From a virus, in the IMG/VR virus record IMGVR_UViG_3300005663_000753, positions 1 through 21,800 of that record: a stretch of 21,800 nt of DNA. One strand, written 5' to 3'. The notes beneath the pieces were generated by a model. That model was not told the origin of the DNA, made no database searches, and saw only the letters and a list, made by a program, of their open reading frames with translations. This document shows positions 12,413 to 17,274 of the stretch, piece by piece; position 1 is the first letter of the stretch; each line of letters starts with the position of its first letter. Position numbers and translations under genes: made by a program.

Positions 12413-13126
12413 ATGGATTGGAAACAGACTATAGAGTTGACTGACTTAAAAAGCCCAAGGAGTAAAGTACTAAAATTACTCACTAAAAAAGCTAATAATG
12501 AAGGTTACTTAGGCGTATGTGTACAAGCTAGAGATTTGCTAGTAATTAAAAAGTATGCGAGAGAAGGTCTTAAACTAGTTACTATAGCTGGATTTCCTCC
12601 AATTATTATGTTCCCCAGGATACATGATTTAATTAAAAAGGATTTCAGATATTCTTTCTTACTGGGGCATTACACTAGAGCTGAAATTAAAAGAATCAGA
12701 GAGATAGCTAAAGAAAATATTGCTGATGAGCTGGATATAATTTTTCCCTTTTCTTGGCATACAATGGGATACGACAAAAGAATTTTACACTTTCTTAAGG
12801 GAGTTAAAAAAATATTTCCAGGAAAGGTCAAAGTAATTATTGAATTAGGAACTATATTTAAAGAGGAAAAACATCTAAAGAAAATTTGCTCATTACTCGA
12901 AGAGGCTGGTATAGATATAGTTAAAACTAATTCAGGATTAATAAAACAATCCTTTACAACCTTGTTAGCGCATGTAATAGTGTTAAAAAAAATAACTAAG
13001 CTACCCATAAAAGCTAGTGGTGGTATTAGGTCGGTTGGCGAAGCACAATTATTAATTCATTCTGGAGTTACTAGAATAGGTTCAAGTGGTTTGAAAAATA
13101 GTCAAACTGAAGGAGAGAACAAATGA
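12413..13126 (+). CDS. deoC-like: Deoxyribose-phosphate aldolase-like (DeoC family)
   Basis: 237 residues of the DeoC TIM-barrel. Landmarks are GVCVQARDL (34-42), VTIAGFPP (56-63), ADELDIIFPFSW (104-115) with Asp108, KVKVIIELG (138-146), the Schiff-base lysine Lys171 in DIVKTNSG, Lys200 in IKASGGIRS, and the phosphate-binding RIGSSG (221-226). All active-site residues appear present. DeoC cleaves 2-deoxyribose-5-phosphate to glyceraldehyde-3-phosphate and acetaldehyde. The N-terminal IDHT-like motif is changed (IELTDL). On a phage it could dispose of, or make, deoxyribose phosphate in step with the deoxyribosyltransferase-like enzyme at 2483. AAGGAG supports the start. Confidence 0.82.
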   Translation: MDWKQTIELTDLKSPRSKVLKLLTKKANNEGYLGVCVQARDLLVIKKYAREGLKLVTIAGFPPIIMFPRIHDLIKKDFRYSFLLGHYTRAEIKRIREIAKENIADELDIIFPFSWHTMGYDKRILHFLKGVKKIFPGKVKVIIELGTIFKEEKHLKKICSLLEEAGIDIVKTNSGLIKQSFTTLLAHVIVLKKITKLPIKASGGIRSVGEAQLLIHSGVTRIGSSGLKNSQTEGENK

Positions 13127-14451: not shown

Positions 14452-17274
14452 ATGGAAAAAGATATTAAAAATACTTACAAAAACTTTTGGAAAGGCTTAG
14501 AAGAAGAGCATAAGCAGCATAGTTCTAAGTTTAGGGTAGAGCCTGTATCTCCTAGAATATTTTTTAAGGATTACTTGAAGACTATTTTATTCCCTAGGCA
14601 GCAAAGAGCTGTTGATGCAGCATATTCAGCAGATTACAAAGATATAAGTGATACTAAGAATGAATTCTTATTAGGTTGGGGTAAGAGGTCAGGTAAAGAT
14701 TTGACTATAGCTAATCTTATGTGTTACATGGCATATTTTTTACTCTGCCTAAATGACCCTCAAGATTACCTTGGTATTAAATCAGGCGAACCTATTGATA
14801 TAGTTAATGTAGCATTTGATAGAGAGCAAGCGGAGAGTGTATTTTTTGAAAAATTTACTAGAAAAATAAAAAATGCTAGAGACCCTGTAACGGGCAATAA
14901 TATATTTGAGGATTTAGGTATGAACATTGATAGAGCTATTCTAAAAAATAGAGTAGAGTTTCCTAAGAATATTAGAGCTTGGAGTTTGAACTGTTTACCT
15001 TCTATTGCAAAAGTACTAACTAAAAATCACGGTTACATGCGTATCGGAGATATAGTTAACAAAAAAATAAAAGATGATGTCAAAAGCTATAATACAGAAA
15101 CTGAAAAAATAGAATGGAAACCTATTACAAATTGGTTTAGGAAAGAGGATTCAAATGTTAATTGGTATAAAATAAACTTCGACTTTAAATCGAGTTGCCA
15201 TCCAGGTAAATCAATTATATGTACTCATGACCACAGAGTTTATATTGTTGGTAAGGGTTTAACAGAGGCACAGCATATAAAAATAGGTGATTCCGTAATT
15301 AACTATAGACCATCACCCAATAGTATACAGCAGCAAGTTATGTATGGCAATCTATTAGGCGATGGGTCTATATCTAAAAGCTGTCTTACTATGTCTCACA
15401 GTGATAAACAGTTAGATTATTTACAGCATAAGTATAATATTCTAAAATCTTTATGTAAATCTGGAATTAAACCTATTACATCCGTATCAAGGTTAGGTGT
15501 ATTCAAAGGTAATTACTTTCAGACAAAAGCTTTATATGAGCTAAGAACTATGCCAACACAAGGAGCAAAAAGATTTAAACACTATTTACCTAAATTAACT
15601 GCTTTAGGTTTGGGTGTATGGTATATGGATGATGGGTCTAAAACCTGTAATGATTATGCAACCATAGCTTTACCTATAATACCCGATGAAGTTAGAGACT
15701 TTATTATAGCGGAATTACATAACAAAGGGTATATAGTTAAAATACATAGGTACAAAAATAATGCTACTATACTAAGTTTTAATGCAGACAGCTCTAGGAA
15801 GTTATATAAAGATATTGCACCGTATATTCCAAAATCTATGCAGTACAAACTGCCTAAAATAAACAGAGGTAAGAATACTTTCAGATGGGGGCGTCAAGAA
15901 CCCACATATACAGAGGTTAAAATAACAAGTATTACAAAAAATTACCATAACGGAAAACTAGACAAGTATGGATGGTATAAGGCTAGCTTATCTCAAAATG
16001 TTAAATATTGCATAGAAGTTAAAGATAATCATAATTTTTTTGCTCACGGAGTTTTAGTTGAGAATTCGAGAGAATATAAAGCTGAAGGAAAGAATACGGT
16101 ACTAGCTGTATTCGATGAAATAGGTTCATTTCAATTTGATAAAGCGGTATCAATAAGAAAACATATTAGAACTACAGCTAGAACTACAGCATTAAAATAC
16201 TACAAGTTATTTTTTATATCTTATTTAACATCGGGTAATGATTATATGGCTCACTTACTAGATAAAGCCGAAACAGAAAATACACCTAATGTCTATGTGG
16301 ATAGAGCTGCCACATGGGATATTAGGACAGCCAAAAATTGTCCAAAAGAATTACTTAAATATGTTGTTAATAAGGAAGATTATACTGATGATTATGATGA
16401 CGACCCCGAAGGTTCAATGCTTATGTATGAGTGTAAAGTACCTAAGTTTTTTTCTAACAATCTTATAAAGAAAAGGGAGAAAATTCTTGAATGTATTAAT
16501 ATGGATAGACCTGAACCCTTCATGGATAAAGAAAATATATGGACTCTAAACATAATGGATGAAGTAATGGAACCTTGGTTCAATCCTTTCACTACCTGGG
16601 AAATATGGAATTTAGAACAGAAATATGTAGATAATCCTACAGAGGAACTGGAGAGAAAAATTAAAATTTTAAAAGAAAGACATTCAACTGGGGAATACTT
16701 TATTCATATAGATTTATCTAGAGGTGTTAGGGATGGTGCTGGGCTTGCTTTAGGACATTCATACAGAATACTAGATAGAACAAAAGCTTATATTGATTTA
16801 ATGATTCAAATAAGGGCTGATAAAAGTGGCGAAGGTATTTCAAAAGAAATAGATATGGAAAAGATATTACAGTATATAATATGGCTAAAGAGAATTAAAA
16901 AATTTCCTATTACTAAATTAACTACTGATAGTTGGAACTCTGCTCTTTTTATGGATATCTGCAGAAAGAATCATATAGATTCAGAATTACTATCATTAGA
17001 AAGTTCTACAGCTCCCTATGAAACTTTTAAAGACTTTATTTACAGGATGGATGTAGACTTATATGCTTATGCACCTTTTATACGAGAAGCCTCTGAATTA
17101 GTAGTAACTACTAAAGGTAAAACAAAAATAGACCATCCAAGGAAAAGTCCGTGGAGATTGAAGGAAGAGGGGATTAATCGTGGGTCAAAAGATGTTACAG
17201 ATTGTGTGGCTGGAATTTTATATACCATAATGAAAGATAGTGATGGAGAAGGTTTAGCATATCACTCAAAATAG
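14452..17274 (+). CDS. terL: Large terminase subunit with in-frame intein
   Basis: 940 residues before splicing, 582 after. The ATPase domain has an atypical Walker A GWGKRSGKD (75-83), Walker B VLAVFDEIG (550-558) and a coupling motif ISYLTSGND (589-597). The C-terminal RNase H-like nuclease has FIHIDLSRG (Asp754), LTTDSW (Asp826) and KDVTD (Asp914/Asp917). It packages DNA into the prohead and cuts the concatemer. Residues 181-538 are an intein inserted between Asn180 and Ser539, just before the SREYKAEGKN strand leading into Walker B, so splicing is needed for packaging. The ATG has no clear Shine-Dalgarno sequence (AT-only upstream), unlike its neighbours; translation may depend on the YopX-like ORF 15 bases upstream. 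Confidence 0.93.
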   Translation: MEKDIKNTYKNFWKGLEEEHKQHSSKFRVEPVSPRIFFKDYLKTILFPRQQRAVDAAYSADYKDISDTKNEFLLGWGKRSGKDLTIANLMCYMAYFLLCLNDPQDYLGIKSGEPIDIVNVAFDREQAESVFFEKFTRKIKNARDPVTGNNIFEDLGMNIDRAILKNRVEFPKNIRAWSLNCLPSIAKVLTKNHGYMRIGDIVNKKIKDDVKSYNTETEKIEWKPITNWFRKEDSNVNWYKINFDFKSSCHPGKSIICTHDHRVYIVGKGLTEAQHIKIGDSVINYRPSPNSIQQQVMYGNLLGDGSISKSCLTMSHSDKQLDYLQHKYNILKSLCKSGIKPITSVSRLGVFKGNYFQTKALYELRTMPTQGAKRFKHYLPKLTALGLGVWYMDDGSKTCNDYATIALPIIPDEVRDFIIAELHNKGYIVKIHRYKNNATILSFNADSSRKLYKDIAPYIPKSMQYKLPKINRGKNTFRWGRQEPTYTEVKITSITKNYHNGKLDKYGWYKASLSQNVKYCIEVKDNHNFFAHGVLVENSREYKAEGKNTVLAVFDEIGSFQFDKAVSIRKHIRTTARTTALKYYKLFFISYLTSGNDYMAHLLDKAETENTPNVYVDRAATWDIRTAKNCPKELLKYVVNKEDYTDDYDDDPEGSMLMYECKVPKFFSNNLIKKREKILECINMDRPEPFMDKENIWTLNIMDEVMEPWFNPFTTWEIWNLEQKYVDNPTEELERKIKILKERHSTGEYFIHIDLSRGVRDGAGLALGHSYRILDRTKAYIDLMIQIRADKSGEGISKEIDMEKILQYIIWLKRIKKFPITKLTTDSWNSALFMDICRKNHIDSELLSLESSTAPYETFKDFIYRMDVDLYAYAPFIREASELVVTTKGKTKIDHPRKSPWRLKEEGINRGSKDVTDCVAGILYTIMKDSDGEGLAYHSK
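14992..16065 (+). mobile_element. LAGLIDADG intein within the large terminase
   Basis: 358 residues. It begins with Cys (CLPSIAKVLTKNHGYMRIGD), has the block B TxxH as THDH (Thr258, His261 of the precursor) and block F DNHNFFAHG, and ends VLVEN before Ser+1. The two LAGLIDADG helices are GNLLGDGS (299-306, Asp304) and GLGVWYMDDGS (386-396, Asp394), so the homing endonuclease looks intact. The penultimate residue is Glu rather than the usual His, which normally helps Asn cyclisation. Composition matches the host gene, suggesting long residence or a donor of similar composition. Boundaries are assigned from splice-site chemistry and the continuity of the terminase motif. Confidence 0.9.

Follow-up and report, generated by a model that had tools for sequence, protein, structure and literature searches.

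The large terminase gene of a metagenomic virus is very probably interrupted, between terminase residues Asn180 and Ser181 beside the Walker B strand, by a cis-splicing intein of class 1 in which a two-motif LAGLIDADG endonuclease is nested. The element is of an ordinary, well-known kind with one uncommon residue, a penultimate glutamate (Glu357) that is known from one metagenomic virus record. Its boundaries, its motifs, its predicted fold and the empty alleles of related phages carry this identification. The DNA analysed (the window) is bases 1-21,800 of a virus record 62,983 bases long, and the coordinates of the element and its host gene are collected in Table 1.

Table 1. Terminase precursor, intein and their parts in the window.
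Feature	Position	Strand	Basis
Large terminase precursor, 940 aa (N-extein + intein + C-extein)	14452..17274	+	single open frame
N-extein, 180 aa	14452..14991	+	aligned to intein-free terminases
Intein, 358 aa, class 1 (Cys1 ... Glu357-Asn358)	14992..16065	+	
HINT splicing domain, N-terminal part, blocks A + B	14992..15303	+	intein_Nterm, PDB profile matches, DSSP strands in model
LAGLIDADG_2 homing endonuclease domain, I-SceI type, motifs GNLLGDGS + VWYMDDGS	15334..15804	+	Pfam PF03161
C-terminal splicing blocks F + G, VKYCIEVKDNHNFFAHGVLVEN	16000..16065	+	intein_Cterm; motif match
GAG, penultimate Glu357, block G:6, where His is usual	16060..16062	+	
C-extein, 402 aa, starts with Ser+1, carries Walker B LAVFDE	16066..17271	+	

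The 940-codon frame runs without a stop or frameshift, and the exteins, in frame on both sides of the intein, keep the ATPase motifs, Walker A (WGKRSGKD) lying at residues 76-83 of the N-extein. Joined, the exteins match annotated terminases of Streptomyces, Rhodococcus, Gordonia and Rhodobacter phages (E about 1e-24 for the Streptomyces phage proteins) and, weakly, the PHROG terminase large subunit families; the whole precursor also matches a Brevibacillus phage terminase. Walker A, Walker B and this homology mark the gene as a phage large terminase, an assignment consistent with the portal gene, the expected neighbour, that directly follows it. The phage gene cluster beside the terminase genes also encodes a deoxyribose-phosphate aldolase-like protein (12413-13126; TIGR00126, 73 bits, below the cut-off of that model). 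Elsewhere in the window, a 250-aa protein without a PHROG match (777-1529) resembles in make-up, by eye, a protein encoded near the terminase on contig L010 (4207-4872), each having a hydrophobic stretch followed by GxGAGxE...GLSY/GTSY.

Both intein boundaries are settled because intein-free terminases from IMG/VR contigs, 56-60% identical to the joined exteins, read through FPKNIRAWSLN/SREYKAEGKN. Intein-free homologues run NIRAWSLNSREYKAEGKN gap-free across the junction; L008 has FPKNIRAWSLNSREYKAEGKN where the window has FPKNIRAWSLN-[358 aa]-SREYKAEGKN, and the empty site is also seen in L009/L157, L156 and others. The intein spans residues 181-538 of the precursor, from TGT for Cys1 (14992-14994) to GAG-AAT for Glu357-Asn358 (16060-16065), with TCG for Ser+1 starting at 16066. 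Asn flanks both ends (..LN/C...EN/S.., a slash marking the junction here and below), so the empty site alone is ambiguous by one residue; this ambiguity is resolved because only the reading Cys1...Asn358/Ser+1 suits intein chemistry. Ser stands at +1 in all aligned terminases except one (L170). An earlier note, made from the DNA letters alone, had placed the intein at 14992-16065, just before Walker B, and predicted a spliced product of 582 residues. These coordinates are exact: the junctions match the empty alleles, which rule out a different splice junction, the Walker B strand LAVFDE follows the insertion point by 12 residues, and the joined exteins come to 582 aa. The same note had allowed that homologues might hold the segment as a normal domain; among about 79 distinct relatives readable at this site, none does, and none has an intein-sized insert there.

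Three profile models recognise the splicing domain, namely Pfam Intein_splicing (41 bits; cut-off 35.8), NCBIfam intein_Nterm (37.6 bits over residues 1-84; cut-off 24.5) and NCBIfam intein_Cterm (19.5 bits; cut-off 15.6). The window has a single copy of the C-terminal motif, and 100 shuffles gave none. PDB profile matches to the splicing domain include the Mtu RecA intein, and an AlphaFold2 model built with 16 viral relatives (mean pLDDT 88) is matched by Foldseek, over the same domain, to PI-PfuI, PI-SceI and the Mtu RecA, Npu DnaE and Ssp DnaB inteins, the last three at 1.8-3 A over about 107 columns. The first Cys, TxxH, HNF block, terminal Asn and Ser+1 that the earlier note had read from the translation are all found. 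The block B TxxH is Thr78/His81, invariant in two intein alignments; block F has His347 at F:13 and Cys at F:4 (VKYCIEV); and all class 1 catalytic residues align with those of the phage RNA ligase, T5-like DNA polymerase, UvsX and plasmid RecA inteins. Block A is without the usual Gly-Asp (CLPSIAKV versus CxxGDTxV). Cys1, TxxH, terminal Asn358 with Ser+1, the HINT fold and precise absence from intein-free homologues together define a class 1 intein, an assignment that Glu357, in place of the usual but not obligatory penultimate His, does not disqualify.

The Cys at F:4 had also suggested a class 3 intein, the marks of which are no nucleophile at position 1, Trp at B:12, Cys at F:4 and Thr at G:5; this is ruled out by Cys1 and by Val at both B:12 and G:5. 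Across inteins, Asp is the most frequent residue at F:4 and Cys the next (PMC4031507). A Pfam splicing-model search of the virus record missed even the window intein, and cannot speak for other inteins in that record.

The endonuclease domain scores 67 bits against Pfam LAGLIDADG_2 (cut-off 25), and the intein family profile matches I-SceI and I-WcaI at E of about 1e-27 to 1e-31. I-SceI and I-WcaI have the same domain (TM 0.66-0.68 by target length; 0.68 over 204 columns for I-SceI by Foldseek) but are free-standing and intron-encoded, whereas the window endonuclease is nested in the splicing domain. Both LAGLIDADG motifs retain the metal-binding acid, in agreement with the earlier note: Asp124 is invariant among 8 aligned inteins, and of the pair Asp213/214, Asp214 aligns with the second Asp in the MDDG motif of I-SceI. 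The endonuclease looks intact by these residues. GC3 is 0.23 in the intein and 0.23 in the exteins, and intein codon usage fits the phage. Candidate intein-less targets were looked for and are present, 11-18 of the central 24 bases being identical at close empty sites. Because no other phage with an intein at the window's site was found among the readable relatives, transmission or recent spread of the intein is undocumented.

Penultimate Glu was uncommon wherever we compared phage inteins, as the earlier note had proposed. A scan of IMG/VR DNA used the pattern HNFxAx[G/D/E]xxVxN with the penultimate codon free; at least 120 phage C-termini match, and of the 120 listed, 109 have His, 11 have Ser and none has Glu. 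A second, somewhat looser pattern fixed to Asp/Glu gave no match in all of IMG/VR. Ten of the nearest inteins, taken from phages, from a plasmid and from IMG/VR, have His without exception, and 25 IMG/VR relatives (a few of them near-duplicates), sought on viral contigs with the KLEP7 intein, comprise 14 with His, 6 with Ser and 5 with Lys, so that Glu is found in 0/35. The residue varies even inside one well-supported clade, where the sister pair L239 and L243 have Lys and Ser, respectively; the tree gives the window intein no firm placement with any relative. Of 5 relatives with Cys at F:4, 3 have no His at G:6, an apparent association that was set aside because Cys at F:4 goes with His in the larger motif sample. 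A single read error is an unlikely source of Glu357 because CAY to GAR takes two base changes.

The Glu pattern, extended by [AT][CG], has 13 matches in 84,980 prokaryote genomes, and in all of them the +1 residue is Ser or Thr although the pattern permitted Cys. Twelve of them end VEN/S(I/L/V)EQ, a DnaB sequence, with the N-side junction LRESG/C seen in 10 of the 12 loci; these (L135-L145, L147) are DnaB inteins from Actinomycetota and from candidate-phyla bacteria, with V(V/I)EN/S(I/L/V)EQ at the C-terminal junction. The thirteenth, in an archaeal record (L146), is an EF-2 P-loop intein (HIDHGK/C ... VVEN/TTLTDN; gene named from sequence). Across 396 genomes of one phylum around a Glu carrier there were 45 matches, 43 with His and 2 with Glu, one of the two being the carrier itself. 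DnaB inteins that end VVEN at the site LRESG/S(I/L)EQDADV, which we take to be the Ssp DnaB intein site, share the Glu-Asn C-terminus, Cys1 and Ser+1 with the window intein but have Asp rather than Cys at F:4. When the window intein was searched in five Glu-Asn DnaB genomes, four gave no match and the fifth gave a short frame resembling the endonuclease part.

In architecture and endonuclease family, the window intein is like the LAGLIDADG_2 inteins of RNA ligase (KLEP7, mycobacteriophage Phoebus), T5-like DNA polymerase (Gostya9), UvsX and Acinetobacter plasmid RecA, which are 349-367 aa long and 24-33% identical to the whole of it; they differ in lying in other host genes and in having penultimate His in all those named. 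Mycobacteriophage TerL inteins (TerL1-a to -e, TerL6-f) are likewise class 1 homing inteins in the terminase ATPase domain, one of them in Walker B, but belong to a different terminase family (PMC5050341). About 40% of mycobacteriophage inteins sit in terminases, and their penultimate His is often replaced by Gly, Lys or Ser, with Glu not listed (PMC5050341).

Histidine at G:6 is not needed in all inteins: about 5% of functional inteins are without it, and putting it back may help or harm (PMC4031507). DnaE inteins splice with Ser or Ala at the penultimate position (PMC5874633), and the Bethlehem RDF phage intein splices completely with Gly and is slowed when His is restored (PMC5050341). Among open-licence papers we found none on a penultimate glutamate in inteins. 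The bacterial DnaB inteins that end Glu-Asn, we infer, must splice, the DnaB helicase being essential. The fairest reading of these comparisons is that Glu357 would be a rare tolerated state at a position that varies often in this intein family. The intein, its location, its Glu-Asn end, the probable need for splicing and the intact-looking endonuclease of the earlier note therefore stand. Its suggestion that Glu may slow splicing or make it conditional is unsupported, since His is dispensable elsewhere, a phage intein with Gly splices fully and DnaB inteins carry Glu; the sequence does not imply that splicing is slow or conditional, and no kinetic statement can be drawn from it.

A regulatory role for Glu357, in which Asn cyclisation would be slow or pH- or redox-dependent and the packaging ATPase would mature late in infection, seems improbable to us. 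Phage inteins rarely have Glu at G:6, the penultimate residue alters precursor accumulation in the mycobacteriophage RDF intein (PMC5050341) and the terminase is required only late, but the effect in that published case is the opposite, non-His being fast and His slow. Moreover, no switch was noticed in the sequence, Glu is likewise penultimate in inteins of DnaB, a protein required constantly, and the recurrence of Ser and Lys at G:6 in the intein family looks like relaxed constraint. We put less trust still in a decaying intein, in which loss of His would be the first step of degeneration and would lead to partial or dead-end splicing and weaker packaging. The non-canonical G:6 residue agrees with decay, and so does the search result that no further phage carries the intein at this position, a pattern that could fit a late homing cycle; but the other catalytic residues, both LAGLIDADG acids and the whole 940-codon frame are intact, and a non-splicing intein should be lost from an essential terminase.

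That the segment is no intein at all, but an ordinary domain of the terminase or a chimera made in assembly, is scarcely credible even though this form is known from one sequence record only: intein families, HINT and LAGLIDADG folds and catalytic residues are all present, about 79 homologues are without the segment exactly at the predicted junctions, and the reading frame is continuous on both sides. A rather unlikely but not fanciful suggestion is that penultimate Glu is a separate, recurring solution for Asn cyclisation in phage terminase, bacterial DnaB and archaeal EF-2, with Ser or Thr and never Cys at +1 in the cases found; the residue could act as a general acid, and its charge could make C-terminal cleavage pH-dependent.

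We conclude that the homing intein is real and probably functional, and that its position is new for terminases of this family. With Glu357 as a tolerated residue in an otherwise ordinary class 1 intein, the HINT fold would activate Cys1 after translation through an N-to-S acyl shift aided by Thr78 and His81, and the N-extein would pass to Ser+1, a residue conserved by the terminase itself. Asn358 would then cyclise; His347 of block F would presumably be its main helper, and Glu357 would be either tolerated or a substitute hydrogen-bond or acid-base group. Ester rearrangement would yield the 582-aa terminase. Once free, the intein may cleave the continuous extein sequence of intein-less alleles, into which repair would copy it.

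The element is a clean natural case, with exact empty alleles, for how inteins manage without the penultimate histidine, and penultimate Glu is rare yet used more than once. Its site beside Walker B joins the list of terminase ATPase insertion hot spots. The practical gain is modest, in that an intein with Glu at G:6 and Ser+1 suits testing of an acidic residue's effect on the rate-limiting step.

Within this terminase family the P-loop site is often occupied and the window's Walker B site once; the P-loop inteins are unrelated to the window intein. An unsplit P-loop intein (GEG/C ... HN/SGKD) is found in relatives of the window terminase on L010 (5890-8598), L169, L185, L190, L215 and L216, and the P-loop intein of L010/L187 has a PD-(D/E)xK-like nuclease region. 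On L180 (2230-4979), L181, L186 (2173-4982), L168 (2215-5027) and L179, the terminase gene is split within a different, Walker A P-loop intein (WG[EK]G/C ... HHN/SGKD). There, ORF 1 encodes the N-extein, the N-intein and a putative nuclease marked by the pattern SSWEV..PDFY..EIKG, ORF 2 starts with a C-intein of about 38 aa, and on L180 and L168 the ORF 1 stop overlaps the ORF 2 ATG (ATGA). These five resemble natural split inteins of the terminase that carry a VSR/EDxHD-type endonuclease. A different terminase, on L002 (1681-4620), is interrupted by a LAGLIDADG_2 intein immediately after the acidic residues of Walker B (FLDE/C ... SHN/CQDM).
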